The notes under the pieces: generated by a model
Told to the model about the DNA's origin: nothing
The model's database searches: none
Seen by the model: only the letters and a program-made list of their open reading frames with translations
Shown here: in pieces, positions 43,966 through 63,471 of the stretch
Numbering within the stretch: position 1 is the first letter of the stretch
Layout of the letters: every line of letters starts with the position of its first letter
Made by a program: the position numbers and the translations under genes
Virus record (IMG/VR): IMGVR_UViG_3300006793_000024
Span: 1 to 64,000 of that record
Strand: one strand, 5' to 3'
From: a virus
Length of the DNA stretch: 64,000 nt

Positions 43966-44397
43966 ATGTCTTTTGATCTAAGAATAGAAAATGGAGATTT
44001 GAAAATAAATGCTGATGGCACGTTATCTACCGTAGCTGGCAACTCGAAGCTGAGGCAAGATATTTTAAAAATCTTGCTTACAAGTTTGGGTGATAATAAA
44101 TTTCATCCGAAATATGGAAGCCACGTTGGAAAGCTCCAGATAGGAAGCTATGTTGACGAGAGGATTATATCTTTAGATATAGAGTCATCTGCAAGAACTG
44201 CACTCAGAAATTTAATGTCTCTTCAGCGGTCACAGTCTAGAAGACAATCGCTATCTCCTGGAGAAACTATTGTAGATATCTTGGGCTTAGAAGTTACGAG
44301 AGACAAAGCTGATCCGAGATTGTATAACATATTTATTTCAGTAGCAACTCAATCATTAGATAAGATAGAAAGCTCTATAACAGTAAGAATAGCTTAG
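43966..44397 (+). CDS. Baseplate wedge protein, gp25/gpW family
   Basis: 143 residues, a usual length. The sequence follows the gp25 pattern: an N-terminal strand pair (FDLRIENGDLKINADGTLST), a helix (SKLRQDILKILLTSLGD), the F.PKYGS loop (FHPKYGSHVGKLQIG) and a C-terminal strand (LYNIFISVATQS). gp25 proteins form the inner baseplate and nucleate the sheath. Directly followed by the baseplate J gene, which is the conserved order in myophages and contractile injection systems. Confidence 0.85.
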   Translation: MSFDLRIENGDLKINADGTLSTVAGNSKLRQDILKILLTSLGDNKFHPKYGSHVGKLQIGSYVDERIISLDIESSARTALRNLMSLQRSQSRRQSLSPGETIVDILGLEVTRDKADPRLYNIFISVATQSLDKIESSITVRIA

Positions 44398-44405
44398 GGG
44401 AAAAG

Positions 44406-47400
44406 ATGGCTACGTTTAGATCATTTAGCGAAATAGTATCTACAATGCTGCAGAGGTTAAGGCTCTCTCAGCCGAGCCTAGATACAAAGCCCGGTTCTGT
44501 CTCTAGAGATCTCTTCGTAGATCTTCCTGCAGATGAGCTGTCAAGGCTATATTCTGCTCTAAACCTAGTCTCAGAGAAACAATCCCTAGCGTCCTCCATA
44601 GGAAGAGATTTGGAGCGCTTAGGAGCTAACTTCGGAGTCTTCAAAAACTCTGGAACATTGGCTAGCGGAATTCTTATTTTTGCAACCAACAGTCTTACCT
44701 CAGATATCTCCATCCCTAGCGGAACTACAGGGACTTCAAGAGGGGGAATCAGCTTTCGAACAGTAGGTAATTATGTAATGTCTTCGGCGGATAAAAATCG
44801 CTTGGCAGCGAATGCCTCAAGGCTCAGAAAGTCACTGAACATTGCAGGGCTTAATAGCGCTTACGCCATAGAGGTTCCAATAAGAGCCATTAGGCCTGGG
44901 TCGGCAGGTAACGTGGGTTCGCTACAAATAATAAACTCTAACCTTCAAGGTGCTGCCTCAGTCGTGAATTTAACTCCGACTACTGGCGGAACAAACCAAG
45001 AGAGCGATGACTCTTTTCGTGCCAGAATTTTAGCCATATTCAGCGGAGCAAACACGGGAACTTCTGCTGGGTACAGAAACTCAGTATTAGGAGTTTCTGG
45101 CGTCCTAGATGCGCTAGTCGTTGAACCCGGTAACTCTCTTATGCTTAGAGACGGTACGGAATCAATAGAGCTTGATGACGGGACTAGTAGAATTTTAAGC
45201 TCAGGAACAGGCGGAAAGGTAGACATATATATATTGGGAAGAAAGATAGAGGCTATTTCTGAATCATATGTATTCACAGACCTATCTGGCTCTGGGAATA
45301 TTTTCGATGAAAGAAACGACTATATACTAGGCCAGTCAAATCAAGACCTCACTAGGACTTCAGAGGAAAGGCGAGTCCAGGCTTTCAAAGAAGGCCTTTT
45401 GCCAGCGCAACCCGTAGATTCCATGGTCTCTGTAGTTGGAAGTTCCTCTGGAGCTTTGACCGAAGCATTTTTGGATCAAAATGGAGTTAAGCGCGGAAAC
45501 TTTGAGCTTCAAAAAGATCTTAATCCAGAAACGGGAGGAAGCCCGTTTGGCTTTGATAAGATTCACTTTATTTCAAATAAAAAAGAAGTAGAAGCAGAGC
45601 CTGTAGCGAAAGGAGAGTCTTATGGATTAGACTCATTGGAGTTTTCAGATCTCGAAAGTCTTAGCGGAGTATATGTAGACTCTAACGAAACATCTGAAAA
45701 TTCAGACGTAAGTACTGCCGGATCAGAATTTATTAAATTGCGCCAAACACCTATCGTCAGAGTCTCTAGGGTCCAAAATAAGACTACAGGAGAAGTATAT
45801 TCCGTTGTAAACCAAAATCTAGGTGAAGACGGCCTAAACAGAGACGGAATAATAAAGATTTCCGGACGATCACTTCCGACTTCTGCAGATATTTTAAGTG
45901 TAAATTATACTTGGAGAAAGTTTTTCGATAAACACATCGACTTCTCCGGAGGAAACCAGTTTCAGTTTAAGACTCCATTCGCAGTAGATGTAATTGATTG
46001 GGCTCAAAGCGGTGGAGTTTCTGGGGAAAAGTCAATCATTGAGAAGACAGATGATGGCCTAAACTTTCAAGTAACTCTAGATTACGATATAAGCAGGGCT
46101 ATCTCTGTATATTCGAGAACTGAAGCAACTGCTATCGTAGCAACTGTTGACGCATCTGGAGCAATTGGAGTAACTCTTTCTGCTGCAAGCGAAGCGGTTA
46201 GCGAGGGAATTTTATCAATAAAAAGAGACAGTGATCTTCTGGAGGTTTATAACACGGAAGAAGGAGATGGATCCTTTAGATCTAGGGTTATCTACTTCCC
46301 GTCAGATACTTCTGCAGAGATAGGCGATACCGTTACAGTTATTTATAATAAGAAAGAATTATTTGATATAAAAGACTCAGACGGCTCTATATATAATAAT
46401 GTCATTATTCTTCCATCAGAAGGTATTTTGACAGAAAATGGTCTGTTCTCTCTAGTCGAAGATGCTTTCTTCTCAGAGGAAGATATTTATGTCGATTATG
46501 TATTAAGTACTAGAACCGTATATCCCAAGATAAATCTATCCAACCTTCCTATAACAGAAGCGGCTTTATCAAATAGGCTGACCTCATCAAGCGGTACTGG
46601 CTCAAGCAGTTCAAATCAGCCAATATTCTATGACTATAAAGCTGATTCTAGCTTAACGCCAATTATTAAATTTTCTCCAACGCCAGTCGCCGTCGAGGTT
46701 TCTGGAATAACTAGCTCCGGAAAAATAAAGCTAACAGGAATAACTATTAATCGCTATACTTTAGATGTAAAAGTAGGCAACTCAGTAAGCGGTCAAATTT
46801 TTAATTTGGAAGCTGATTTAAAATCAGTTCTGGGACTAACATCTTTGCCTACGAATATTGGAATCGCCAGAGTAGATGCAGTAAGCCTTTTGGATGAAGA
46901 TGGAGAAGTAGAAGCTTCTTTCGATATCCTTGGCTCCTCGCTAGAGGACGTGACCTATTCCGTTGGGACAGCCGCTGAGGATTCTTCTCTGAGTAATTAT
47001 ACGTTCGTCATTCCTTCTACTCCAGATAATAACTCAATCTCCCTATCTGCTGGAGATATAATCAGAGTTGAGCTGCTAGTTTATGATTCTAATGGTGCTG
47101 AAGAGATATTCTTCTCAGGGTCTTCCAAGAAGACTACTAAAAATAGATTTGGCCATATAGAGAGGGTATCTGTATCATCTGGATTTAGATCTAGCACAGG
47201 CAATCTGGTTGGCTCTATTGAGTTAAGCGCAGACAATCAACCAGATATTGGGGATACCTATAGCGTTGATTATAACTTTTTTGCGCCAAAAGAAGGAGAA
47301 CGAATCAGTATATCGTATAATGTAAATAAGCTCATTATTGACTCTACCATAGAAGCGGAAAGAGTAAGGCCTGTAACTGCGGACATTTTGATAAAAGAAG

Positions 47401-47723
47401 CTGAGGACATACCCGTAGACGTTCAGGGCACATTGCTTATAAATGATAATGCTTTGAATAATTCTAATAAAATCGTTGAAACTGTAATAAATGCTATATC
47501 GAATGCTCTGAATACCTCTGTATTGGGAGGAACTGTTGACTATTCCGATATAATTGCAACGGCAGCTGCAGTAGATGGAGTTGACTCTGTTAATATTTCT
47601 ATCTTTAACGAGAATGGCAAAACAGGAAGAATCCCGTTCATTAGAGCTCTCGATAATCAGTTTGTTTCTCCTGGCGAAATATTATTTGAAGCTGTTTCGA
47701 GGAATAAGTTTAGAATCAACTAG
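44406..47723 (+). CDS. Baseplate J-like wedge protein
   Basis: 1105 residues, aggggaaaag before ATG. Residues about 5-260 fit baseplate J / gp6: LDTKPGSVSRDLFVD, then DISIPSGTTGTSRGGISFRT, AIRPGSAGNVGSLQI, GGTNQESDDSFRARIL and SVLGVSGVLDALVVEPG. The rest (about 300-1105) is beta-rich repeated structural sequence, extending the protein well beyond the usual 300-660 residues. The J/gp6 ring joins wedges around the hub. The tail-protein-I-like giant follows by 8 bases, the conserved order. Confidence 0.85.
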   Translation: MATFRSFSEIVSTMLQRLRLSQPSLDTKPGSVSRDLFVDLPADELSRLYSALNLVSEKQSLASSIGRDLERLGANFGVFKNSGTLASGILIFATNSLTSDISIPSGTTGTSRGGISFRTVGNYVMSSADKNRLAANASRLRKSLNIAGLNSAYAIEVPIRAIRPGSAGNVGSLQIINSNLQGAASVVNLTPTTGGTNQESDDSFRARILAIFSGANTGTSAGYRNSVLGVSGVLDALVVEPGNSLMLRDGTESIELDDGTSRILSSGTGGKVDIYILGRKIEAISESYVFTDLSGSGNIFDERNDYILGQSNQDLTRTSEERRVQAFKEGLLPAQPVDSMVSVVGSSSGALTEAFLDQNGVKRGNFELQKDLNPETGGSPFGFDKIHFISNKKEVEAEPVAKGESYGLDSLEFSDLESLSGVYVDSNETSENSDVSTAGSEFIKLRQTPIVRVSRVQNKTTGEVYSVVNQNLGEDGLNRDGIIKISGRSLPTSADILSVNYTWRKFFDKHIDFSGGNQFQFKTPFAVDVIDWAQSGGVSGEKSIIEKTDDGLNFQVTLDYDISRAISVYSRTEATAIVATVDASGAIGVTLSAASEAVSEGILSIKRDSDLLEVYNTEEGDGSFRSRVIYFPSDTSAEIGDTVTVIYNKKELFDIKDSDGSIYNNVIILPSEGILTENGLFSLVEDAFFSEEDIYVDYVLSTRTVYPKINLSNLPITEAALSNRLTSSSGTGSSSSNQPIFYDYKADSSLTPIIKFSPTPVAVEVSGITSSGKIKLTGITINRYTLDVKVGNSVSGQIFNLEADLKSVLGLTSLPTNIGIARVDAVSLLDEDGEVEASFDILGSSLEDVTYSVGTAAEDSSLSNYTFVIPSTPDNNSISLSAGDIIRVELLVYDSNGAEEIFFSGSSKKTTKNRFGHIERVSVSSGFRSSTGNLVGSIELSADNQPDIGDTYSVDYNFFAPKEGERISISYNVNKLIIDSTIEAERVRPVTADILIKEAEDIPVDVQGTLLINDNALNNSNKIVETVINAISNALNTSVLGGTVDYSDIIATAAAVDGVDSVNISIFNENGKTGRIPFIRALDNQFVSPGEILFEAVSRNKFRIN

Positions 47724-47731
47724 GTAAAGGC

Positions 47732-50700
47732 ATGCTTCGACCAACATTATTTTCAATACCGTCCAGTACAGAGCTAAAGGTAACATTTAATAAGAATTTA
47801 TCTGAAAGCTTAAGTGCTGAAAACTTTAAGATAACTTCTGTAAGCGGAAATGTAAGCGATTTAGAGGTTACGAAAGTAGCGGTATCAGAAAAACAGGTTG
47901 TAATAACCACGAAGCCGCAGGTTGCGGGCAATTATTACATTCTAAGCCTGAAGGATGCCACGGGGGCAGACTTTACTTCCTTGGACGGTGTTGCTCTAAT
48001 AAATGACGATTCTAGTCGAGATCTGTATTTTCTAGGACTAAAAAATTATAATCCTGTTAGAGATAGGCTTGTTCAAAATATACCATCTCTCTATAAATTA
48101 GAAAATTCAAATCTAACAAGCCTCATCGATAATCAGGCAGAAGAGCTGTTTCGAGCGCAAAAGCATATAGGAGAGCTTTTAAGCGATAATTACATATCAG
48201 AGACAGTTGTAGATGAAAGAAGAGTTCGAAGCTCTGGAGCAACAGACAGACTGTCTAATGAAAACGCATTTATCATTGACAGAGTATCCTCTGAGCCTAC
48301 AGGGGGGCTGTCTATTTTTAGGAGCCTTGATTATAGCGCAGAATCCAGTATTTCTAGACACTCTTCTTTTCCTAGCTATCCAGTCTCTACTCAGGAGATG
48401 GCAGTAACTGCCGAGGAAATTACCCTGGGGACAGAGGGGGCCTCATTCGATGGCTTTCTGGTCAATCTTTCAAAGAAGAATGTAATCAAGCTAACTAAGC
48501 TTATTCTTGTTAAGTCCGGGGAAGTCGAAGATTGCGATGGAAATCTTGGGACAGAATATAGTCTATCGACTTACAAATATTCAATTCTAGACAACAGGTA
48601 TGACGAAGAGCTTGCCTTCAGCAATAGTTCTCTCTTGTCTAATCAGGTCTTGTTGTCCGAATTTGGAAATATAGATAAGCCAAAAGTTGGAGATAAGATT
48701 ATTGCATCCTACTTGTATCGAGATGCGGGAATCAGGCTTAACGAAGGTTCTTTGGAGATTTTCAACTTGAAGGCCATTCCTCAAGAATCGCTTCCAGCAA
48801 ATAGCAGCCGATTCTTTCTCAACAAGGCCCCCATAGTAGATTCGAATAATCTTATTCCAGAAAGAGGAGGCATATCCTTTTCATACGGGCAGGCTTCTCC
48901 CGGAATTCCTGCAGAATTTAGAAGAGAACTTGTTTATAACGCGTCAAAACTACCTTCTAAGTTAGGAGAGTACACCGTCAATTATAATACAGGAGAGGTA
49001 ATTGTCGTTGGGTCAGAGAGAATAGGAGAAGGAACTGGCAATCGTGCAATTATCGCCTCCTATACTTACAGAAATTCTTTTGTAGAAAACCTAGATTATT
49101 ACGTCAACAATAATGAAATTGTAGCCTCTAAGACAAGGAGTCTTAAGGGCTCCCAAGTTACTGTCGAATTTACTTATGAGAAAATCTTCCTAGATGGAGT
49201 TGACTATGCGGCTCCATGTCACACAGAGATCCTCAATGAGCCAGTTGAAAATAATTTCTCCACGTCCTTCTCTATAAGTCCTAAAAATACTCCTGTTACG
49301 GACGTTTTTAGGATTTTTAACCAAACTACTGGAGAGGTATACTCGCCTCTATATTATACAGATGACGAAATCTTTTTCTCAGGAAGAAAATCTCCTGAGT
49401 TTAAGACATCTGGGTTGGAAAGTGCTAATTTTGATCTGATTGAACTAGAGGAGCTTGCGGCGGTAGGAGAGTTCGTATGTCCGGCTTTCACTATAGAGAT
49501 TAGAACAGCTCTATCTAACTCTAATATTCGTTTTTCACCAGGAATTCCTTCTGAGTTAATCAACTTAAATTCTCAGGATTATCTGATCAGAAGTACGGGC
49601 TTAACCGGCGGAGGTGATCCCGAGGATATTCAGATAAGGTTTTTTGGAGAGCCTGATTCAAACGGATTGATTCATTCATTTGGAATATCGCTAACGGCAC
49701 AGGCTCCATCGCTTGGAGAGTCTGTGACGCTGGGACCATTGGGCTACGTCTTTAGCTTAGAAAAAGCTCAGGTTATTAGCAAAACACAAGATTCAGTTGG
49801 ATCATTTTCTAATACTTCTGCTATTTTCTCTGATGATTCGGTATTCGTCAATGAAAAATACTTTAGGCCCTCGCCCTTATCTCCTTCTCTTAGTTTTCCC
49901 GAAAAAGGATCTTTACAGAGTGTGTTCGTATCGGAGAAGGCAGACGTAACCGTAGAAAACGTTTCACGCTTAAGAAAGCCTGGAGACTATTGTATTGATT
50001 ATGACCATGGAAAAGTTTACTTGGCAGTAAGTAAAGAGCAAGAGTATGAGGCGGGATTTGTCAGCTATAGGCATGGATCATCTATTTCTAGAAATCCAAA
50101 CATTATAGCCGTCTCTAGAGCATCAAAGCAGATTCTTCCATCTAATTCTGTTTTTGATTCTGCAATTAATTATAACTCTATACTTAATACAAATAATGCT
50201 ATAAAGATTAATGATTTAGAAACAAGTCTTTTGAGAAATACTGGAGCATCTGCCGCAGACCTCAGCGGAAATATAGAGGAAACGAACAAAATTCTTGCGG
50301 ATTACACAATTATCGTTGAGCATAAGATCTCCTCGATAAATACCATTCTTGACGAAAAATATCTTTATGGCTCTGGCCTAAACTTTGCAGAGCTTTCAAA
50401 GCGGATCCCAGATTCTGCTGCATCAGAGGCGATCCTTCCATTTTCAGATGGCGGAACAAATCTTTATGATTCTTCCTACGTAACTTTTGAAGAGAATGTT
50501 ATAGATTTAAAAAAGGTATCTAAAACACGAGTCGTCAAGAAAGATGGAAGCTTCACGATTAGAATTTCTGACTCTGATCTTGAGTCAATTTTCGAGATAA
50601 AGAACAACTCTACGGGCGAAGCCATTACTGATGGAGTAGTTACTCTTAGCTCAACTGGAGCTGTCATTATAATCCCAGATAGTGCTGCCATATCCTCTCT

Positions 50701-53700
50701 AGACTTAGTTGAGGTCAGCTATATAACAGATGGAGTTCCATCTGTTGGCACAAAGGTGGCTGTAGATTATAGATATGGCAGGATCCACTTTGATTACACC
50801 TATTCTTATGATAATGTTTTTGTCTCTTATGAGTATGGAGACAATCAAATTGATTGGTCTATTGGAAGCGCCATAGGCGAAGGAGAAGAGTATTACGTTT
50901 CTTATAAGTATGGGGCGCTGAGGGCTGCTCTGAAGAAGAATTTCGGAATCTTAACTAAAATTCCATTTTTCCAAAACTTTGGACTGAATATTGATAGGGA
51001 GCTGTATCGTAATGCGCTTCAAGGTGCAATGCAGGCCTTTACTAACGGGCCTAAAAAATCTTCCTTTGGCACTTTGGTAAAATCCTTTACAGATATAGAG
51101 CCGGATATAACGGAGTCCGCATTTGGCAGCTGGATCTTAGGAAGAGACCTTCTTCAGCCAGAAGAAATAGAGGTTTCTGGCCCTATTAGTTTTTCAAATT
51201 CAAAATTCAAAGAAGGCTTGGATGTAAAAGATGGAACGATCGTTTCCGTTCCCTCTGTTTCAAATATCAATCTTGATGAAGGCACATTTTCCGCTTGGGT
51301 AACTCCACATTGGTCTGGAATTGATAATGATGCAGAGATTACAATTGAAATAGACAATATAGGTCTTCAGTCATATAAATATGTTCTTGGAACAGATGTT
51401 TTTAATTATGATAACAAATTTAGCCTATTTCCCAGCGACAATAGGATTGGAGGAGTAGATAGTTCTATTCCAAGCATCACACTTCACAATGGAAGGACTG
51501 TACTTATAGATGAAGAAGAAGTTCTTCAGATTGGAGTAAGTGCTCTAGCTAAGAGGGAGCCTTCTCTGACCCGAGCCACCAAGCTAGAACTTGGTATTTC
51601 AATTAAGATTGACAACTTCAGTATTCCAGAAAAAATCTCTGGAACCTCCGACTCACCTCCTGCTTTAAAGAATGGCGTCCTGGGGCTATACGAGTCTACG
51701 CACAATGTTCCAGGCTATTTGTCGGCGTCTACTCCTTCTCAGTCTTCGATAGGCTATGGGAGTCCCGGCTTTATTTCAATAGGAGATGATAATAAGCTTT
51801 TGTTCTTACAGCTTGCGCTGCGGCCCGTAACTAATGCATCTGATGGAAGCGTGTTTTACGTGGAGATAGATGATGATGATCTTTCGACAAATGACTTTCC
51901 CAAGTATGATAGACTTCATCCGACTACTAGCTGCAAGTGTACCGTAACAGATACCGTTTCTATTCTTTCTGGATTTAGAGACAGGGAAGTTCAGACTGTC
52001 AAGGCTGAATTCGATTCAGCTGTCGATATATCTCACATTCGAAGCCTCAATGCTGTTCTAACCGATGGGCCATCCGCTTTTAAGGTAACAGATTCTCGCG
52101 GAGCAATATATGAGGTATACGGGTATATTGATGAAGATGGAGAGGAAGCCTCTGGGGCATTCCCCGATAAAATTACAGGCTTTTTGCTTAACAAGATCCC
52201 TCAAAACCATGAAGAAATTACGGCTAAAGGTTCGGAATTTTTGAATGACTTCAATCCTCTCGGAGAGTTATTCTTAAGCTATCAGATTGTATCTGTATTA
52301 ACGGAGTCTGATACCGACTCCGAAAAGGTTTTGGGATATGAGGAAAAGGCTTTTGTTGCAGATTGGAGTACAGAATGCCTGGATATCTCCATTCTTAGAG
52401 ATCCTAGGAAAAATCTAGTTACAATAGATCTTCTCTCTAAGACATTCTCGGAGAAAAAGACGGTCAGCCTTTTCTATACAGATCTGATCAATACTTCGGA
52501 TGAAAATTATATTTTTTCAAGATTTAGCCTTGATGATCTAGCTGATTTGCCCGCAGAAAGCAGCGATAGACTAAAGGATAAGATATCAGTAGGAACTTTG
52601 GACAAAAGCTGTAGGGCGATAATAAATATTAATAAGCTTGATTATAAAATTACCAACAGATTTAGCCTAAGCGATATATACATTGGAAAGTTCGGAAGAA
52701 ATCCAAAACGAAATCCATTTTCAATTAGCAAAAATGATTCGCCAAACACCTCTGTCGGAGTTCCTCTTAATTACGAAACTTCAGAGGGAGTATTTATAGG
52801 GTTTGATAATCTTTGTGAGAGTAGCCTTTCGGATGACGCTGGGCAATGGGTATTCAGAACTCGTGCTGCAGAAACTATATCTCTGCCAACATCGGTAGCA
52901 ATAAGCGGCTCTGATTATGAGCTAGAGTCATCAGATATCACAGTAGAGCACACTTTTGACGGAAGAATTCTAACTGACGGAGAGTTTTCCTCTGTCACTA
53001 GATCCTATCGAAAAGAAGATGATGATTCTTGTGCTATGGGCCTAGTCTGCTCTGCTCACTACAGGTACTGCGGAGAGGATCTTCTGGAGAATGCGGGCTG
53101 GAGAAAGATTAACGAAACTGATTCTTCCATTATAAACCTTCTGCTGGGTGGCTCAGAAAACGATGTTGGATTTTGGACAAAATCTGGTAGCTTTAACACC
53201 TCTGCAGATGGAGGGGTTTATCGTATTGGACCGTCAACTTCTGTTGTCGATCCAGAGAGCGGAGATCTAGTGAATAGGAATACCCTATTCGGAAGAATAC
53301 CCTGTTCGGATGGGGATTGGACTTCAACAATTAATTTCAGAGTTTTGGAGTCGGACTTCAATATAGAGGGATCTGCTTTGGCCAGATTTGTGGGCGCAGT
53401 TTCTGGAAACTTAACAGGAATTTCGCCGCTGCATATTTTTGATGGAAAGATAAACATAAAATTATTACTAGGTATCTCCGACGCCTCTCAGCCGGTCCTA
53501 TTAACGATGGACGGGCATTCTGGCGATATATTGGACATATCATTTTTTGACTGGAGCGATGGAGAGTATAAAGAACTGATTATTAAAAATGAAAATGATA
53601 TAATTTCCGTAGAAACTGACTCTGAAGTTTTGAGCGTTATCTCTGCAGGAGACTTTGAGGATGCATCTGTTGATTCTTGCGATCTATTAAGCGAACCATT

Positions 53701-56700
53701 TATAGCAAGCCACTTATTCGATGGTTCAATTATAGATTCTACGGCTTTTCATCAGGCCTTCACTGGAAGTATTGTTGATATATCACTAATAGAGTATGAA
53801 GGTAGAAGAGAAGAGGGCCTAGGCCTCCTTGAGAGTGATGATGTCTTCATATCGACTGATTCAAAAATAGAGTTTTCTTTCGTCACTACGGATTCGACAG
53901 TTGATGGCTATTCTGACGGATATTCCGATGGATATGACGATGGATATGACGGATATGTCTCTGAGGTAGTATATGACGTTGACGAAATAACTTTTACATC
54001 AGATAAATTGCGGTATTTGCTTGACACAGGAGAAGGTGAGTCTAAAAATCGAATATCTATATTTAAAGACGGAAAGGGATTTCTAAACTTTAGAATATTT
54101 GGCAGCTCCACAGAGAATGGCTCAAACGCCTATAATATAGCTACAAATATCAAGCATTTTAAGGCCAACGAGCTCCATCACATTGGAGCAAGCTGGAGGC
54201 TAAACACTGTTTACGAAAAAGACGAAATGCACTTATTTGTTGATGGGCTAGAGGCTCCTAATTTGTTCCGCTTCGGAGGAAGCGCAAAAGCCCGTGTTAA
54301 TGATAAGTTTTCAGACGTTGGCAAAGAAGTCCTCCAAGGGTTTGTCGAAGAGAAGATCGTATATTACGAAGATCATACGGATGGAACCATTTTGGCCGGA
54401 TCCTCCACGTTCTCCTCGGAAAGTTTAGCCCCGGGAGCCGAATTACTTGGCCGCTCTTTAATCTTCAAGGATTCTGATATAGCAGAGGCATATATCGGAG
54501 GAGGATTCATAATAGGGCCAGTGGTTGGCTCGGGAGTTACGATTCTTGATTCGATAACTCTTGATCCTATTGTATTCAATACTTCTGCTTCAGATATAAC
54601 CTTCTCTCTAGCTCCTACGGCTGGAATCTCAGAGTCATTAGCAGCCGATATTAAGAACGGAGCTTACTCGGTCTTCAGGACAGATTGCAATGGACAGACA
54701 GAAGAGCTGGGCGGGCTAGAATATTCAACAAGTGGTAGTTCAATTACTCTGATAAATCACGGGCAAGCAATAAAGCCGGCTTTTAGAGCCAATGTCTCAT
54801 CTAAGATAATAGAATTTATTGGAGAAGACGACGACTGTAATATGACATCTAGCGTAAGCTTTTCTGATTTAGATATTCATCTGAAAACATTTGGATTGCT
54901 CTTTAGAAAGGTCAAGACGGATATTGCTCTATCTAGCTCATCATATGACGACTCTAGAAAAGATGAGCTTAAGAGCGCATTATTCTCGCACGGAGTTGAG
55001 CCTGTATCTCTTTCTGATGTTTCGGTAAAAAGAATAATAAAAACAAAATACATTCCAGAATTCGATGAAATAGATCCTGTTGATGATTTTTACCTCGGAA
55101 CTTTTGAGACCTCTCTTGAAAATTCTATCGGAACATTCAAAGTAAGCTCTGAATCTGGGCAGCTAGACAAAGAGAACAAGGGGCGACAGCTATCCGTGGT
55201 TATAGATTCAGATAATATCAAGTTCTGTAAAGAAATTACAGATGGATATGCAGACTCTTTGGTGAGCAAAATAACTATCTCTGGGAAAACAACAGATGGC
55301 TCTAATTCTGAAGAATTTTATATAACTGGAAATGGGCTTTTAGATGGAGAAAAATTCTTTACATCTGTAGAGTCAATTTCTGGAGAATTAATCGTTGCAG
55401 ACACATCATATGAGTCCTGCGTTTTAGAGGTTATTGAAAAAGATCCTGTAACAGTTGGCAATAATGATGGAGAATATGCAGAGATCACTAGATATATAAA
55501 TGGAGCGCTTACGCTAAAGACTTCTGGGTCCGATTCTCCATTTGAGCTTCATCCCGGAAGTTATAGAGTGGAGTTTCCTGCATTTTTAAACATTAAAATA
55601 CCACAGGTCGGACCTAAGCTTTACCTAGGCTCAGATATGAATGGAAAGGGCCAATTTAATGGAATTTTAGATGAGTGTAAAATCATTACAGAAATGTCTA
55701 ATGATACAAGGCCTACAGCTCTTACTACTTCCGGTACACGAAGTATAACGGAAGAATATTTAAATCCAAATCCAAGCTGTCCAGATGATCAGACGATTTT
55801 ACTATCTCACTTTGATAACCCAATAAAACTGCAGTCCAGAAGGCTTCGTCAAAAGGTTTTTTTGAACACAGATCATAACTACAGGTTTAAGCTGGATCAC
55901 TCAGACAGAGAGGTCCTTCTTGCGTCCATAAATGACAGAGAGGCTTTTGAGTCAAAAATGATTAGAATGGGCTTTTCGAAAGATCAAGCCGTCAGAACTT
56001 TCTTCGAATGTCATAAGGCTCAGGGCGGTCCGGTCTTTAATGAAGCAAAACTGCTTAGGTCGGACGATATGCTTGTAAGCTTTGGAAGCGTAAACAGCCA
56101 TTTCGGTCAAGCTGCAAAGTTTTTTGAAACAGCGCCATTAGTTATTCAAAATAATCTTTCATTCTTTAGAAAAGACAAGGGAAGCATTGAGTTCTGGGTA
56201 TCGCCACTTCTCAATACTTATAATGACCCAACAAAGCGGACCTACGTAGAGATATCTTCTGTGGATAGAAAGCGGGTCGAATCGACCTCTCCAACAAGCC
56301 TGAGGCTTCCCGCTGCTGCCAAGAAAATTCTTGGAATTAAGCTTATAGAAAATAAAGAAGAGTTTTCTTCCTTTTACTCTCAAACAGAAGTTGATAACAT
56401 TATATTTGATGAAATCTACAGAAGCGAAATAACCGGCAGACTGGCCGGAGGAACTGGGGTAAAAAAGGACTTTTCTCGCGGATCTACCTTAAGCCCTAAC
56501 GGTAGGGATATTGCCCTGAAAGATGCTCTTCCTGGCTCTGAAGTGGATGTGATTGTTACATATATTCCAAGAGATTCGGCTGGTGATATCGTTTCTATAT
56601 ACAAGGATGCGGATAGTCAAATTGTTTTTTCAATAAAGACAAATGACGAAGAGCACAAGCTTGTTGGCGCCGTAGATTGGGAGAGGAATTCTTGGCATAG

Positions 56701-57280
56701 AATTCGATGCGACTACAAAACTGGATCTTCTAGCGATATGATGCGCTTATTTATAGACGGAGAGGATCAGGCAGGCTTTGTCTACGGAGAAGATAGCTCT
56801 ATTTATAATGAAACAGACTCAGATATTACGCTTCCAAGCATTAACTCGCTAAAGACAAAGAAGATTAAGTTATCTGATGATTTTAGATTGATACTGATAG
56901 GAGGCGAATCTAACGCTAATAACTCAGCATTGGCAAGAATGGACAATATTCGCTTTAGCCGGGCAATAAGAGAAGAGGTTAGCGATCCAAATGGAAACAA
57001 GGTCGATCTAAACTATTCTTCTAATATAAATACAATTCTTCCTGTTATAAAGGATAGTATAACGACTTTGCTGCTTAATTTTGACCAAGAAAATACCGAG
57101 GAAAAATATGCAACAATAATCGATCCTGAAAATGGAATATTCAATTTCGACATTGATGTAATTGATGATTTTGGTAAAATCAACAAAGACGAAATAGAAG
57201 ACCTCATAACTGAGCTCGTAAATACGCTGAAGCCATCACATACGAACGCTTTAGTTAAATTTCCAAGAGAATCATGCTAA
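47732..57280 (+). CDS. 3182-residue tail protein I-like giant with LamG-like domains
   Basis: Residues 1-100 form an Ig-like domain (SSTELKVTFNKNLSESLSAE). About 110-155, YNPVRDRLVQNIPSLYKLEN then AEELFRAQKHIGELL, resembles the tail protein I core that binds baseplate J. LamG/concanavalin-type domains appear near 1178 (LDEGTFSAWVTPHWSG), 2150 (IGASWRLNTVYEKDEMHLFV) and 2813-3070 (KGSIEFWVSPL, SWHRIRCDYKTG, MMRLFIDGEDQ, LILIGGESN). These fit carbohydrate binding. A DGY-rich tandem repeat lies at 2058-2075. The gene joins a baseplate attachment core to long receptor-binding extensions, which in smaller phages are separate proteins. Confidence 0.75.
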   Translation: MLRPTLFSIPSSTELKVTFNKNLSESLSAENFKITSVSGNVSDLEVTKVAVSEKQVVITTKPQVAGNYYILSLKDATGADFTSLDGVALINDDSSRDLYFLGLKNYNPVRDRLVQNIPSLYKLENSNLTSLIDNQAEELFRAQKHIGELLSDNYISETVVDERRVRSSGATDRLSNENAFIIDRVSSEPTGGLSIFRSLDYSAESSISRHSSFPSYPVSTQEMAVTAEEITLGTEGASFDGFLVNLSKKNVIKLTKLILVKSGEVEDCDGNLGTEYSLSTYKYSILDNRYDEELAFSNSSLLSNQVLLSEFGNIDKPKVGDKIIASYLYRDAGIRLNEGSLEIFNLKAIPQESLPANSSRFFLNKAPIVDSNNLIPERGGISFSYGQASPGIPAEFRRELVYNASKLPSKLGEYTVNYNTGEVIVVGSERIGEGTGNRAIIASYTYRNSFVENLDYYVNNNEIVASKTRSLKGSQVTVEFTYEKIFLDGVDYAAPCHTEILNEPVENNFSTSFSISPKNTPVTDVFRIFNQTTGEVYSPLYYTDDEIFFSGRKSPEFKTSGLESANFDLIELEELAAVGEFVCPAFTIEIRTALSNSNIRFSPGIPSELINLNSQDYLIRSTGLTGGGDPEDIQIRFFGEPDSNGLIHSFGISLTAQAPSLGESVTLGPLGYVFSLEKAQVISKTQDSVGSFSNTSAIFSDDSVFVNEKYFRPSPLSPSLSFPEKGSLQSVFVSEKADVTVENVSRLRKPGDYCIDYDHGKVYLAVSKEQEYEAGFVSYRHGSSISRNPNIIAVSRASKQILPSNSVFDSAINYNSILNTNNAIKINDLETSLLRNTGASAADLSGNIEETNKILADYTIIVEHKISSINTILDEKYLYGSGLNFAELSKRIPDSAASEAILPFSDGGTNLYDSSYVTFEENVIDLKKVSKTRVVKKDGSFTIRISDSDLESIFEIKNNSTGEAITDGVVTLSSTGAVIIIPDSAAISSLDLVEVSYITDGVPSVGTKVAVDYRYGRIHFDYTYSYDNVFVSYEYGDNQIDWSIGSAIGEGEEYYVSYKYGALRAALKKNFGILTKIPFFQNFGLNIDRELYRNALQGAMQAFTNGPKKSSFGTLVKSFTDIEPDITESAFGSWILGRDLLQPEEIEVSGPISFSNSKFKEGLDVKDGTIVSVPSVSNINLDEGTFSAWVTPHWSGIDNDAEITIEIDNIGLQSYKYVLGTDVFNYDNKFSLFPSDNRIGGVDSSIPSITLHNGRTVLIDEEEVLQIGVSALAKREPSLTRATKLELGISIKIDNFSIPEKISGTSDSPPALKNGVLGLYESTHNVPGYLSASTPSQSSIGYGSPGFISIGDDNKLLFLQLALRPVTNASDGSVFYVEIDDDDLSTNDFPKYDRLHPTTSCKCTVTDTVSILSGFRDREVQTVKAEFDSAVDISHIRSLNAVLTDGPSAFKVTDSRGAIYEVYGYIDEDGEEASGAFPDKITGFLLNKIPQNHEEITAKGSEFLNDFNPLGELFLSYQIVSVLTESDTDSEKVLGYEEKAFVADWSTECLDISILRDPRKNLVTIDLLSKTFSEKKTVSLFYTDLINTSDENYIFSRFSLDDLADLPAESSDRLKDKISVGTLDKSCRAIININKLDYKITNRFSLSDIYIGKFGRNPKRNPFSISKNDSPNTSVGVPLNYETSEGVFIGFDNLCESSLSDDAGQWVFRTRAAETISLPTSVAISGSDYELESSDITVEHTFDGRILTDGEFSSVTRSYRKEDDDSCAMGLVCSAHYRYCGEDLLENAGWRKINETDSSIINLLLGGSENDVGFWTKSGSFNTSADGGVYRIGPSTSVVDPESGDLVNRNTLFGRIPCSDGDWTSTINFRVLESDFNIEGSALARFVGAVSGNLTGISPLHIFDGKINIKLLLGISDASQPVLLTMDGHSGDILDISFFDWSDGEYKELIIKNENDIISVETDSEVLSVISAGDFEDASVDSCDLLSEPFIASHLFDGSIIDSTAFHQAFTGSIVDISLIEYEGRREEGLGLLESDDVFISTDSKIEFSFVTTDSTVDGYSDGYSDGYDDGYDGYVSEVVYDVDEITFTSDKLRYLLDTGEGESKNRISIFKDGKGFLNFRIFGSSTENGSNAYNIATNIKHFKANELHHIGASWRLNTVYEKDEMHLFVDGLEAPNLFRFGGSAKARVNDKFSDVGKEVLQGFVEEKIVYYEDHTDGTILAGSSTFSSESLAPGAELLGRSLIFKDSDIAEAYIGGGFIIGPVVGSGVTILDSITLDPIVFNTSASDITFSLAPTAGISESLAADIKNGAYSVFRTDCNGQTEELGGLEYSTSGSSITLINHGQAIKPAFRANVSSKIIEFIGEDDDCNMTSSVSFSDLDIHLKTFGLLFRKVKTDIALSSSSYDDSRKDELKSALFSHGVEPVSLSDVSVKRIIKTKYIPEFDEIDPVDDFYLGTFETSLENSIGTFKVSSESGQLDKENKGRQLSVVIDSDNIKFCKEITDGYADSLVSKITISGKTTDGSNSEEFYITGNGLLDGEKFFTSVESISGELIVADTSYESCVLEVIEKDPVTVGNNDGEYAEITRYINGALTLKTSGSDSPFELHPGSYRVEFPAFLNIKIPQVGPKLYLGSDMNGKGQFNGILDECKIITEMSNDTRPTALTTSGTRSITEEYLNPNPSCPDDQTILLSHFDNPIKLQSRRLRQKVFLNTDHNYRFKLDHSDREVLLASINDREAFESKMIRMGFSKDQAVRTFFECHKAQGGPVFNEAKLLRSDDMLVSFGSVNSHFGQAAKFFETAPLVIQNNLSFFRKDKGSIEFWVSPLLNTYNDPTKRTYVEISSVDRKRVESTSPTSLRLPAAAKKILGIKLIENKEEFSSFYSQTEVDNIIFDEIYRSEITGRLAGGTGVKKDFSRGSTLSPNGRDIALKDALPGSEVDVIVTYIPRDSAGDIVSIYKDADSQIVFSIKTNDEEHKLVGAVDWERNSWHRIRCDYKTGSSSDMMRLFIDGEDQAGFVYGEDSSIYNETDSDITLPSINSLKTKKIKLSDDFRLILIGGESNANNSALARMDNIRFSRAIREEVSDPNGNKVDLNYSSNINTILPVIKDSITTLLLNFDQENTEEKYATIIDPENGIFNFDIDVIDDFGKINKDEIEDLITELVNTLKPSHTNALVKFPRESC
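53903..53956 (+). repeat. DGY-rich tandem repeat in the tail protein I-like giant
   Basis: Successive DGY units (DGYSDGYSDGYDDGYDGY) are encoded by imperfect 12-base repeats of the type gatggatatgac. It lies between domains and is probably a flexible or calcium-binding linker. A shorter version (VDGYAVDGYAD) is encoded near 60362-60391. Confidence 0.8.
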
Positions 57281-57335
57281 TAAGCTCTATTAATATTGAG
57301 GGAATATATCGAAGCATATTTTCTAGGAGATTTTA

Positions 57336-60300
57336 ATGTCAAGAGCTAATAGAACGGTTCTGCCAAGAGTTAATTTTTTTGACGGACAAAGAGTTACTGA
57401 GTCTGACTTAGACTCAGAGCAGATTCACAATAGAAGTTTGATCTCAAACTCGACATTAGATTTTCATGGGAATGGAGTTGTCAAGGATCGCCTCTTTGAG
57501 AGCAAGGTCTTACTCGATACTGCAGATCCTGGTGGGCAGGAAGATAATTTATCTGAGCTCACCATAGACTCTGGCTCTTATGACGGAAAAGCGATCTATT
57601 TGGACGTTCAGCCTGGAGATTCTGAGTTTGGAAACAGGCTTGAGATTGAGGCAGTTGATCTTGAGATCGGAGGGCGAGTTAAGGCAAAGGTCCTTATTGT
57701 AGGTCGAACCTATTCTGCTGTTAACTCTTCTGGAGAATTGATAGCCGAAGTAATCGAGTTCGATAAAAATACAACTAAACTTACCGAGTTTTATTACAAG
57801 AAGGTTCTGTGTGTATTCTTCAACAACTTCTCAGGAGGGACTGGAGCAACTCATTACGATACAAGTAAGGTTAGCCCAAATACCCTTGGCACTTCTGGGC
57901 GTATAATCTTTCGAGAGTCAGAACCCCTAAAAGTCTTCGCAAGAACGAAAACTTCCTTTCAAACAGAGTCTCCCAATGTTGCTTTGGGAAACTTCATAAC
58001 TTCAAGCCCAAGCCTTACTCTGGAGGAGGAAATCTCTGCAGGTATAGGGCCATCGAATAATTTTAATGACCTTTATTACGAACTTGACCCTTCTGGCATT
58101 TTAACCTTTTCGAAGGGATCTAGTCAGATAGCCTCCTACGGTCAGAAGTTTTTGGCTAAATCAAATAATATTCAAAAAATTGATTTGTTACTTCATGTTA
58201 TAGAGGATAGTTCCGCAGCGTTAGGAGAGGAGTTTGATTTTTCCGGAGATATTGTTGTCTCTCTGCATGAGCTTCAAACAGATACGGACTGTATTTCTGA
58301 CCCAAATCCGGAAAATTTATTAGACTTTGACCCAAACCCTGCGCCTATTGTTGAGGTTTCATATTCTCAAGATGATCTAGAAGGGCTTGGAGTAAAGCTG
58401 TCTGGTACACCACAGGTAATAGAAATTGACCTATCTTCAACCTTAATTGCAGATCCTAAGATTGAACCTTCAATTCAGATCGACAAGTACTATTCAATTT
58501 TGATCAGCAGGCGCGGCAGCAACGCTAAAGGCACAATTGCAATATCCAAGGGCTTTTATAAGCCTAAAAGAAAAAGTGACAATGGACAACAGCTCAATCC
58601 TGAGGAGAATTTTGGCCGACAGACTCAAAGATTTGTTCAATTTGATCCAATTAACTTAGTTTATGTAGATGATCCGGATTCCTCACTATGGTTTGTTGTT
58701 CACTCTGATACCGTGGAGATAACCGATGGACTTGCATATTCTCTAGACGGCCTCCCTATATCTCTTGGTAAGACGACAGACTTTGTTGGAAATACAAAGG
58801 TTCCATATTTTCTCAGAAATATTTCGTTAAAGGATGTTGCGGAAGGATCTCTCAATTATATTGCTCTAAACAGGCAGGACAATTTCATTGACCCAGGAGT
58901 TCATCCTAGGACCGGAAACTTTGTTCATAGAAAAATCGAAGATAGCCCATCTGCAACTATAATGACTGCGACAGAGCTATCAGAAGTTGATCCAGAAAAC
59001 CCTCCGATTCTTCTTGCTAGAGTTACGGATAATAACGTTCGAGATGCACAGGTAATTTCTGGAACTTTTGATAAGGCGGGACTCTTAGGTAGAGACCAAG
59101 TAGTCTTTGTGTCTCCAAGTTCAAATGTCTTAGCTTCAAACTTAATAAATAGAGTTTTTACTCCAGATATAGACTGTGAATGCAACGCTAGATACAGGAT
59201 TATTTCTGCAAACTGCTCTAAGGTATATTCTGGAGACTTTGATAATGATGGCAAGATAACAACTTCTGATTTATCTAGCTTAGTCGATATCGTTGGAAAC
59301 ACACTAATAACAGAGACTACTCAAAGAAAGATACAGGGCGGAGAGCTTGATGTTCTTGATTTCATCAAGGCAGACCTCAACGAGGATGGCACGATTGACG
59401 GATCAGATATCGAGATCATAGAAGACGCTATTGATGGTTATGTCAATTTTACAGCGGATGTATCATTTGATGTATTAACTTTAAAGTTGGAAAATATCTT
59501 AGAAGAAGACGACTACCCTGTTCTTTTTGATTCTGCGGAATCTGCCACCAACTCTGGCCTTGGAGTCTCTGTCGCCTCTTCTGATGATATAACCTTTAAG
59601 ACAGACACAGAGGAAGAGGCTTTGGCAATACGAACTGGAGATTCAATCTCTATTTCTATAGGCTTTTCTGACTCTGGAACTTATACAGTATCAGGAAAGA
59701 CTGTTGGCAGCTCTGGAACTGATGTTTCAGTTTCTGTAACTGAAGTTTCTGATGGTAGTGCAGTTTCTTTCGCCGGATCCACAGGCTTTGACGTCGAAAT
59801 TACAAGTGGAACAAAAACAAACTTATTTGCAGACAATCTCGATTTATTGAAGATCCCCTTTTCTGACCAGAATTGGAAAATAGACTATGTCGGTAGCCCC
59901 TATCAGGATTCATTTGTTGATGTCTGTGACCTCAGAAGGTTTGTAGAGACAAGCTTCATAGAAAAAGAGGAAATAACTTGTGTTTGCGCACCAGATGTGT
60001 GTCAGCAGACTCCGGCTTGCAGCCCTCAGTACAGAACTCAGAAGGTAATCGCAAATGACCTATTTATTCCGAATGGTGAAATCTATAAAGAGCCTGGAGT
60101 TCCATACCATGGCGATATAGAGTTCGCCAATGTGCTTATTCCTTTGCCGCCAGGGACAATTGATGATTGCCAGATTGATCTTTACAACAACTTTATAAAG
60201 TCTAAAGACGGTACATGCAAAACGGCTGCTGGCTATCCGGCAATGCTTTATTCCGATGGAACTTATGTTGGATGCGAAGATTCCGGATCAAATACGGATT

Positions 60301-61925
60301 TGACAAAAAATCGTATTAAAATTTCGCAATGCATAGCCAGTCTATATGTTGACGCTTTAGTAGATGGATACGCCGTAGATGGATACGCTGATGAAACCGA
60401 GGAAAGTGATGCTACAGAGCTCATCTCAGAGACTTTTGTAGACTATACATATCCTAACTCTAATGGCTTCTCAGAGTGGCTTACGTCAGAGCCTTCTGGA
60501 GGGACCTACTTCACAATAAGTACTCCTGCGGCACTAAATTCTCCGGCAACATTTATTCTTGAGACAATAGCTGCTGGAGAAAGAATTGGGCAAATACAAT
60601 ATCCTTCTGCGGCATTAATAGATCCAATTTCGGATGATTTTATTATAGACTTTGTAATGTCAAGGTCAATCTGGGGAGGAGCAAGCCTTACGACGGGCAA
60701 GGTATCATTTTATTCTGAGCTTATAATTACCAATCTGGATGGAACGGAAACGACTCTACAATTTGGATGGAGAGAAACCGCCTCAGGCTCTTTGGAGCTT
60801 TATTACAGTGGGTCTATAGAGGATACCGCAACAAGTATTATTTTAAATGATTTCGACTACTCTATCGCAGCAGTAGACGATCTAAATGATGATATAAGGT
60901 TTAGACTAAGAAGAACAGACGAAGCAGTATTTGCAATGTACTTTGATGACAGCCTAGTAGACTTGTCGGAAAATATATCTGGACAATTTGTAAAAATTGG
61001 AACAAACCTTCCTTTTCAGCCAGGAGCCGGAAGTGCAGAGCTGACCTTTAACTTGGCGCAAGAACTAAATCCTGATGCCGGAATAATTTTTGCAACCAAG
61101 GTTCGAGATCTAACAATTCGTCATACACTAGACTCTGATGATGCAGAGAGCCCTATTGCTATATCCAGAGATTCAGACTCTCTAATCAATAGGGTTACTG
61201 CAACTTTTCCGACGCAATTAACCCAAAAAACCAATATAGTATCTGCCACATTAGAAATGACTCTTGCAGCAGGAATTAGTACTACGGATTCCTTTAACTT
61301 AATTCCATACAACATATTAAATGCAGATAATCTAGGTCCAATTATTGATTATCCTATTTCAGATAATACGTCTCTTCAGTCTACATTTATTCCTGGCACA
61401 CTATCTGCTGGAGATAAGATTTCTGTAGATATAACTCCTATGGTAATTTATTTCCTAAGCCAAACTGGACATCTTCCGGGTCAACATAAGGCTGTTATAA
61501 TAGAGCCTAGCTCTTCTGCAACATCGGCATTATCTATAACTTCTGACGTCAATCTTTCGATAGGATATGAGGATGTTACGACTGGCGTTGTGTTCCAGAT
61601 AGGAGCAAGCGTAGATTCTGCCACTGGAATTGTTACCTTAAAGACTAAAAATATACTATATGATGCGTTAAATGAAGCAAGTAGGACAACGCTAGGGTTT
61701 GGAATCCATCTTAAGAAATCTGGGTTTAAGAACGCCGATGTAAAGATTGGAATTAAAGATCTTTCTAGAATTGGAATCGGAACGTGCGAAGACACTACGG
61801 TCTTCGAAGAAGATGATCTATGCTACTTTATCTCGGGCGCAACGGGCGGTGCAAATGGAACAAGCGGGGCGGCAGTCGGGACCCTTGTGCAAGGTCCATT
61901 TCCTTGCAATCTATTTTTGCCTTAG
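57336..61925 (+). CDS. Tail fibre-like protein with dockerin-like calcium loops
   Basis: 1529 residues with aggag before ATG. The N-terminus, PRVNFFDGQRVTESDLDSEQ, is a motif I know from phage tail proteins, probably for attachment. At about 632-655 and 679-703, GDFDNDGKITTSDLSSLVDI and ADLNEDGTIDGSDIEIIEDA are two F-hand calcium loops in the order and spacing of a type I dockerin. Cysteine-rich stretches are near 880-895 (CVCAPDVCQQTPAC). A DGY repeat is near 1010. The C-terminal part (about 1270-1420, INRVTATFPTQLTQKTNIVS) resembles DNRLRE-type beta-sandwich domains of surface proteins. Likely a receptor-binding or fibre protein whose calcium loops stabilise or dock another component. Confidence 0.75.
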   Translation: MSRANRTVLPRVNFFDGQRVTESDLDSEQIHNRSLISNSTLDFHGNGVVKDRLFESKVLLDTADPGGQEDNLSELTIDSGSYDGKAIYLDVQPGDSEFGNRLEIEAVDLEIGGRVKAKVLIVGRTYSAVNSSGELIAEVIEFDKNTTKLTEFYYKKVLCVFFNNFSGGTGATHYDTSKVSPNTLGTSGRIIFRESEPLKVFARTKTSFQTESPNVALGNFITSSPSLTLEEEISAGIGPSNNFNDLYYELDPSGILTFSKGSSQIASYGQKFLAKSNNIQKIDLLLHVIEDSSAALGEEFDFSGDIVVSLHELQTDTDCISDPNPENLLDFDPNPAPIVEVSYSQDDLEGLGVKLSGTPQVIEIDLSSTLIADPKIEPSIQIDKYYSILISRRGSNAKGTIAISKGFYKPKRKSDNGQQLNPEENFGRQTQRFVQFDPINLVYVDDPDSSLWFVVHSDTVEITDGLAYSLDGLPISLGKTTDFVGNTKVPYFLRNISLKDVAEGSLNYIALNRQDNFIDPGVHPRTGNFVHRKIEDSPSATIMTATELSEVDPENPPILLARVTDNNVRDAQVISGTFDKAGLLGRDQVVFVSPSSNVLASNLINRVFTPDIDCECNARYRIISANCSKVYSGDFDNDGKITTSDLSSLVDIVGNTLITETTQRKIQGGELDVLDFIKADLNEDGTIDGSDIEIIEDAIDGYVNFTADVSFDVLTLKLENILEEDDYPVLFDSAESATNSGLGVSVASSDDITFKTDTEEEALAIRTGDSISISIGFSDSGTYTVSGKTVGSSGTDVSVSVTEVSDGSAVSFAGSTGFDVEITSGTKTNLFADNLDLLKIPFSDQNWKIDYVGSPYQDSFVDVCDLRRFVETSFIEKEEITCVCAPDVCQQTPACSPQYRTQKVIANDLFIPNGEIYKEPGVPYHGDIEFANVLIPLPPGTIDDCQIDLYNNFIKSKDGTCKTAAGYPAMLYSDGTYVGCEDSGSNTDLTKNRIKISQCIASLYVDALVDGYAVDGYADETEESDATELISETFVDYTYPNSNGFSEWLTSEPSGGTYFTISTPAALNSPATFILETIAAGERIGQIQYPSAALIDPISDDFIIDFVMSRSIWGGASLTTGKVSFYSELIITNLDGTETTLQFGWRETASGSLELYYSGSIEDTATSIILNDFDYSIAAVDDLNDDIRFRLRRTDEAVFAMYFDDSLVDLSENISGQFVKIGTNLPFQPGAGSAELTFNLAQELNPDAGIIFATKVRDLTIRHTLDSDDAESPIAISRDSDSLINRVTATFPTQLTQKTNIVSATLEMTLAAGISTTDSFNLIPYNILNADNLGPIIDYPISDNTSLQSTFIPGTLSAGDKISVDITPMVIYFLSQTGHLPGQHKAVIIEPSSSATSALSITSDVNLSIGYEDVTTGVVFQIGASVDSATGIVTLKTKNILYDALNEASRTTLGFGIHLKKSGFKNADVKIGIKDLSRIGIGTCEDTTVFEEDDLCYFISGATGGANGTSGAAVGTLVQGPFPCNLFLP

Positions 61926-62385: not shown

Positions 62386-63471
62386 ATGATTTCTAGAAGA
62401 ATAAGGGCAGAGGCTATGCTTGGCACTCACCATAGTTGGGCCGTTGTAATGCGGAGCCTTATTGGGGAGTTTTTAAAACAAGATTGTGACTTATATCTAA
62501 AGAGTATAAATGGATATGAAGACTTCCCGTTTCAATGGAGGCCGTATATTCGAGATGTTAAGAACCCGGATATATCTTTAACATATACTCTCCCAAGGAA
62601 TTTTAAAGACAGATTTAAAAAAAGAACTGGACTTAAACTGGCAATCTATAACTATGAAACCTCAATTCTGCCTGCTGCTTGGAAGGGTGCAATTAATTAT
62701 GCCGATTATGTCTTGCCTTCAAGCAATTTTTCGAAAGAAGTATTCGTAAACTCTGGTTGGCCAGAAGAAAAGTGTATCGTGATTCCTCACGGGATCCATC
62801 CTGAAGACTTTGAGAGAAAAGATAAGGTCAAAACGCTTAGAACCAAAAAGGCTTTTAAGTTTCTAAATGTATCTATACCTCATTATAGAAAAAATATAGA
62901 TGTTCTTATTGACGCTTACTACTCTGCCTTTCAAGAAAGAGATGATGTATGTCTTGTTTTGAAGTCAAAGGTGGCCAAACCGAAATATTATTTTGAATGT
63001 AATATTCTCGAACAAATCAAGGGTGTCCAAGATAAACATCGTGGAAAATCTTTGCCGCAGATAGAGATCGTTCAGGAGCGTTTTGAGAGCATTGTTCCTC
63101 TGATGAATACCTGTGACTGTCTGGTGAGCGCGGCGTCCTCAGAGGGCTTTGGGCTGCCCCTACTGGAGGGCTTGGCGGCTGGCATGGTAGTTATTGCTCC
63201 AAACTGCTCTGGACAGCTAGATTTTCTTAATTCAAAAAACTCTCTTCTTGTTGATGTGAAAGAAATTGATGCAGACAAAAAGTATCAATACTGGAAATCA
63301 AGCGATGGGGCGAAAACATGGCTGCCAAATAAAGACTCTTTGGCCGAGCAAATGCTTAACACCTATAGAAATAGAGGCTCTCTAAAAGAAGAGTTTACAA
63401 AAGAAACCTCGAATGTCCTAAGGGAATTTACATGGGAAAACGCTGCAAAGAAAATTTTGGATATTAAGTGA
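62386..63471 (+). CDS. Glycosyltransferase family 4
   Basis: 361 residues from ATG 62386; ATG 62416, with agagg upstream, is an alternative. It has the two-lobe GT-B layout. The first lobe includes HSWAVVMRSLIGEF and NYADYVLPSSNFSKEVFVNS. The second starts near 160 (FLNVSIPHYRKNIDVLIDAY) and contains the E..(7)..E region SEGFGLPLLEGLAAGMVVIA at about 250-270, which binds the sugar nucleotide. The N-terminal lobe is short and lacks a clear GGxxR-type loop, as in some phage enzymes. It probably transfers a sugar from a nucleotide donor to an unknown acceptor, maybe virion proteins or a host glycan. It overlaps the next gene by 4 bases (GTGA). Confidence 0.8.
   Translation: MISRRIRAEAMLGTHHSWAVVMRSLIGEFLKQDCDLYLKSINGYEDFPFQWRPYIRDVKNPDISLTYTLPRNFKDRFKKRTGLKLAIYNYETSILPAAWKGAINYADYVLPSSNFSKEVFVNSGWPEEKCIVIPHGIHPEDFERKDKVKTLRTKKAFKFLNVSIPHYRKNIDVLIDAYYSAFQERDDVCLVLKSKVAKPKYYFECNILEQIKGVQDKHRGKSLPQIEIVQERFESIVPLMNTCDCLVSAASSEGFGLPLLEGLAAGMVVIAPNCSGQLDFLNSKNSLLVDVKEIDADKKYQYWKSSDGAKTWLPNKDSLAEQMLNTYRNRGSLKEEFTKETSNVLREFTWENAAKKILDIK

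Follow-up and report, generated by a model that had tools for sequence, protein, structure and literature searches.

Type I dockerins contact cohesins via loop positions 10 and 11 together with the helices that come after the loops, and two symmetric binding modes are common. Their architecture (PF00404) is an F-hand loop followed by a helix, twice over, as in the double-dockerin Clo1313_0689 of C. thermocellum (8x39) and in Doc435 (4dh2). Published work describes dockerins in archaea (PMC9012536) and the double-dockerin (PMC12484212). For phages, it describes an E. coli phage tail protein partly modelled on a cellulosomal module entry (PMC5967307) and the lysin LysGH15 (PMC4022735), which gives calcium in a phage protein a precedent. 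An uncultured Caudovirales phage protein (A0A6J5RS54, BFVD, 1332 aa) is already annotated as 'Dockerin domain-containing protein', and the dockerin label in a phage is therefore not new; its likeness to the protein described here is a model match (E 5.3e-4, TMq 0.40). None of the papers listed by our literature searches dealt with such a module in the baseplate of a phage.

The locus compared with these systems lies in the window, i.e., the whole 64,000-nucleotide stretch analysed, which is part of a 70,589-base virus record. All features given below are on the plus strand. A tail sheath protein is encoded at 18742-22023 (PHROG tail sheath, with a Pfam score below the cut-off), followed by a sheath-initiator-like baseplate protein at 43966-44397 (Pfam score likewise below the cut-off), a Baseplate_J/baseplate wedge protein at 44406-47723, and, at 47732-57280, a tail protein of 3182 aa that contains a LamG-type domain. 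This last gene is the next one upstream of the 1529-aa ORF that carries the dockerin-fold module (57336-61925), and a relative of the LamG protein adjoined upstream in all 32 relative loci tested. A 211,453-base contig encodes a 100% identical copy of the 1529-aa protein. From the gene order, together with a structural match to a baseplate protein of phage phi812, we infer that the 1529-aa ORF is best called a baseplate protein; the phage has a contractile tail, and the gene of the dockerin-like protein lies within its block of baseplate genes.

Two further features of this region were observed. Four glycosyltransferase genes lie downstream of the baseplate genes (window 62386-63471; contig L002 3468-10321; Pfam Glycos_transf_1 and relatives), and a relative of the first was found downstream in 22 of the 32 relative loci, several of the others ending at a contig edge. 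The tripeptide DGY was strongly over-represented in the LamG and dockerin proteins of 29 relatives (window 47732-61925; relatives L024-L057), with 234 observed versus 20.0 expected occurrences in 77,454 aa when each related sequence was counted separately. Runs such as DGYSDGYSDGYDDGY were seen in the window's LamG protein, and the excess looks protein-level because the codons vary.

The structure of residues 1-1021 was predicted from a 30-sequence alignment (mean pLDDT 82.7, and 86-91 in the blocks of the module). The model contained a jelly-roll domain at residues 204-458 (57945-58709), and residues 204-568 matched 9euj_G (Z 15.0, rmsd 3.1, 157 aligned residues; VIA-align), which is ORF65, a DUF4815 domain-containing protein. 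The jelly-roll fold, which lies downstream of the DUF4815 domain, is shared with ORF65 of Staphylococcus phages K and phi812 (9euf, 9eui, and 9euj); the genes around the baseplate genes of these phages come in a similar order, and the N-terminal motif of ORF65 appears similar by eye. None of the 30 members matched DUF4815 (PF16075) at E<=1, and hhalign gave E 0.51. Whole-protein homology was rejected since neither sequence nor profile matches were significant; therefore, the likeness to the DUF4815 protein is one of fold and setting. Unlike the 1529-aa protein, the phage K DUF4815 protein gave no dockerin match at E<=0.1. The 1529-aa protein had no family in PHROGs, where its aligned relatives gave weak, scattered matches, and no match in NCBIfam. 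Conserved cysteines were also present as CEC...C ahead of the module (residues 613-627) and as CxC...C...C beyond residue 880 (in the stretch 864-895) in most long-form relatives and were missing in most short forms; they possibly represent a metal or disulfide site.

Relatives were collected by scans of IMG/VR and came from 57 distinct contigs, the longest having 395,127 bases. The DNA patterns scanned for came from parts of the gene other than the module; the confirming queries of the earlier scans (first 37 contigs) included the module, and the query of the last scan (20 further contigs) was without it. A profile of the module (residues 604-722) found it in all 37 loci of one set and all 27 loci of the other (7 contigs shared, 57 distinct). 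The alignment had one row from the window and 29 from the first 37 contigs, leaving out one with the same gene as the window (L023), two that were mutually identical (L030 and L047), three that were identical to or one difference away from kept rows (L035, L049, and L050), and two with broken genes (L054 and L020). The 20 additional contigs therefore lie outside the 30-row counts given below. Beyond these contigs, tblastn searches of the window protein and two short-form relatives against 50,697 phage records returned no match, the module of L053 had no match in named phage records, and no cellular relatives appeared in scans of genome contigs. The module alone matched 16 records of named phages weakly (best E 0.6); most of these matches were tape-measure proteins, and all were taken as chance.

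The two F-hand loops that the earlier note had read from the DNA were recovered in frame and in dockerin order, as DFDNDGKITTSD (loop 1, residues 634-645, 59235-59270) and DLNEDGTIDGSD (loop 2, residues 680-691, 59373-59408). Across the 20,207 aa of the window's ORFs, a strict loop pattern matched only these two, while composition shuffles gave a mean of 0.08 loop matches and a pair within 70 aa in 0 of 500 cases; shuffling the 1529-aa protein itself gave a loop pair in 0 of 5000. The module extends over approximately 59232-59441, in agreement with the 59230-59446 proposed earlier. Both loops have 12 residues with acidic residues at positions 1, 3, 5, and 12, the dockerin-type arrangement, with the following exceptions. 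Asp occupied positions 1 and 12 of both loops in all 30 aligned rows (only 45 of the 1021 alignment columns were invariant), position 5 was Asp in 28 of the 30 rows in loop 1 and Asp or Asn in all 30 in loop 2, and position 3 was Asp or Asn in 27 of 30 rows in each loop. Among the loci outside the alignment, L080 and L085 also lacked Asp or Asn at position 3 of loop 1, loop 2 of L075 was displaced by one, and position 12 of loop 2 was lost in the broken gene of L054/L065. The loop search pattern fitted 26 of the 27 loci, L075 being the exception. Separately, we observed the dockerin gene to be broken across more than one frame in two contigs (L054/L065 and L020/L068).

The loop starts were 46 residues apart in the window and 46-64 in most relatives. 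They were 153-156 residues apart in six loci (L073, L074, L077, L079, L082, and L084), in which an insert of approximately 110 residues separates the F-hands and both loops are kept. This insert looked beta-rich by eye; it had no Pfam match over the cut-off in any of the five inserts tested, and the single insert searched against PDB sequences matched none. These observations bear on the reading that the module is a purely structural insert with an optional metal, retained solely so that the domain around it can fold. The weak ligand sets of some members and the predicted linkage of the module to strands on both sides are in keeping with it. We nevertheless consider it quite unlikely, given that Asp 1 and 12 were invariant in all 30 aligned members and that both loops survived the large insert, which folding alone need not demand.

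Dockerin_1 (PF00404) matched residues 633-697. The score varies with the length of the protein submitted, from 21.5 bits for the whole 1529-aa protein, just below the gathering cut-off of 22.9, to 23.2 bits for residues 1-1021 and 28.7 bits for the 119-aa segment of residues 604-722, and the cut-off is passed only by trimmed input; a six-frame search gave 26.4 bits. The cut-off was passed by 6 of 16 phage records. When the module profile was searched against PDB sequences, all 20 matches at E<=0.01 were dockerins or dockerin-bearing chains (best 3e-7). A run similar to the G-x-L...AD preceding loop 2 of type I dockerins was present as well. The loop starts of the two solved dockerins are approximately 33-34 residues apart, versus 46 in the phage module; the longer linker is a variable trait and compatible with the dockerin fold.

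A second model, restricted to residues 555-870 (316 aa, mean pLDDT 90.9), was used for structural comparison of the module. According to the models, a beta strand enters the module (residues 620-631, 59193-59228), loop 1 leads into helix 1 (residues 643-650, 59262-59285), the lengthened linker holds an extra helix (residues 660-667, 59313-59336) and a helix directly before loop 2 (residues 673-679, 59352-59372), loop 2 leads into helix 3 (residues 689-699, 59400-59432), and a further strand leaves the module (residues 710-720, 59463-59495). The predicted arrangement is thus that of a dockerin, each loop being followed by a helix; the earlier note had named the absence of such paired helices as evidence against its proposal, and both are predicted here. 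The best solved matches of this model were the dockerins 8x39_A (Z 8.7, rmsd 2.2, 65 aligned residues) and 4dh2_D (Z 8.2, rmsd 2.0, 61 aligned residues), the only ones to exceed a VIA-align Z of 8, below which a match may reflect a common arrangement. Dockerins took the first 7 of the best 50 rows and approximately 15 of the 50 overall. A Foldseek search of the 316-aa model against the PDB gave no match at E<=0.001, and its top rows included dockerins at probabilities of 0.98-1.00. The claim of a dockerin-like module in a phage tail protein, more exactly a baseplate protein, is supported.

In the models the module is integral, lying mid-protein with a strand of a beta domain on either side, and would not form a free terminal docking tag. 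Short-form relatives keep it and are without the small beta-barrel-like domain at residues 733-830 (59532-59825).

EF-hands (PF13499 and PF13202) and the EF-hand-like phage lysin LysGH15 likewise have 12-residue acidic loops. EF-hand models scored below their cut-offs on the window's module (19 versus 30 bits for PF13499), position 12 was Asp in all 30 members versus the Glu of EF-hands, and the model placed a strand before loop 1, in contrast to the E helix of EF-hands. An EF-hand pair (PF13499) was rejected on account of the score and of this strand.

Many phages require Ca2+ for adsorption. Two F-hand loops with invariant Asp 1 and 12 in a baseplate protein could accordingly be read as a calcium sensor, in which the baseplate would pass from a resting to a contracting state when Ca2+ is gained or lost at the cell surface. 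There was, however, no sign of a second state, the loops resemble the stable sites of dockerins, and the model ties the module to the beta domain on both sides; we therefore regard such a switch as unlikely.

Conservation within the module was one-sided. Over 25 long-form rows, its mean entropy was 1.21 bits versus 1.44 bits for the whole protein. E696 and A698 of helix 3 and then G701 were fixed in all 25 rows, and E693, D697, and D700 were kept in 22. Helix 1 was variable, and positions 10 and 11 of loop 1 showed some of the highest entropies in the module (2.70 and 2.59 bits, respectively). We read this pattern as a single working face formed by loop 2 and helix 3, although the conservation there could reflect folding and not contact.

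The same pattern bears on the second half of the earlier proposal, namely that a cohesin-like partner sits in another tail protein or on the host. If the module were a true dockerin, it would dock in a calcium-dependent manner onto a cohesin that either belongs to another virion protein or is displayed on the host surface, serving assembly or host recognition. The fold and loops are of the dockerin type, cohesins may be too divergent for a single HMM, and the host could have one. On the other hand, no match to the cohesin model PF00963 was obtained at E<=10 in any of 22 distinct phage records, many of which are fragments, and the 211-kb relative had one dockerin match and no cohesin match. None of five approximately 110-residue inserts matched cohesin at E<=1. 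No free cohesin was among the best 50 rows listed by VIA-align for either model, a result that carries no weight against one. Because no cohesin was found in the 22 phage records, the cohesin half of the earlier idea is unsupported. Moreover, the cohesin-contacting positions 10 and 11 of loop 1 are highly variable. Receptor-binding parts are usually variable as well, whereas this module is an internal insert kept in all relatives. Its internal position between strands and the lack of a cohesin in the phages searched set it apart from type I dockerins. A true dockerin therefore appears very unlikely, and the partner of the module is most likely not a cohesin.

Taking these lines together, our preferred reading, to which we assign a probability of approximately 0.58, is that the module is a dockerin-fold docking or bracing element, putatively calcium-stabilised and integral to a jumbo-phage baseplate protein. 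It would resemble a dockerin in its predicted fold and in a probable dependence on calcium. The two loops would each bind Ca2+, and the bound ions would lock the helices together. The locked module would then brace or dock the baseplate protein through the conserved face of loop 2 and helix 3, which may contact either the rest of the same chain or an adjacent subunit of the virion. The first candidate for such a neighbour would be the LamG giant encoded next door. We hold it as a tentative and somewhat doubtful extension that this jumbo-phage baseplate family has its own calcium-locked dockerin-type joint with a non-cohesin partner, which would be another subunit of the baseplate or some structure on the host surface. 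In one branch, this joint would also carry the approximately 110-residue insert between the F-hands.

Dockerins have been studied as plug-and-socket parts of cellulosomes, and here a virus machine has the fold built in as a part that it always keeps, although no socket for it could be recognised. A 'dockerin domain' in a phage annotation need not imply cohesin binding or cellulose. If the calcium sites and the contact face are real, the module would represent a dockerin interface without a cohesin and would offer a testable account of calcium-dependent assembly or triggering of the baseplate.
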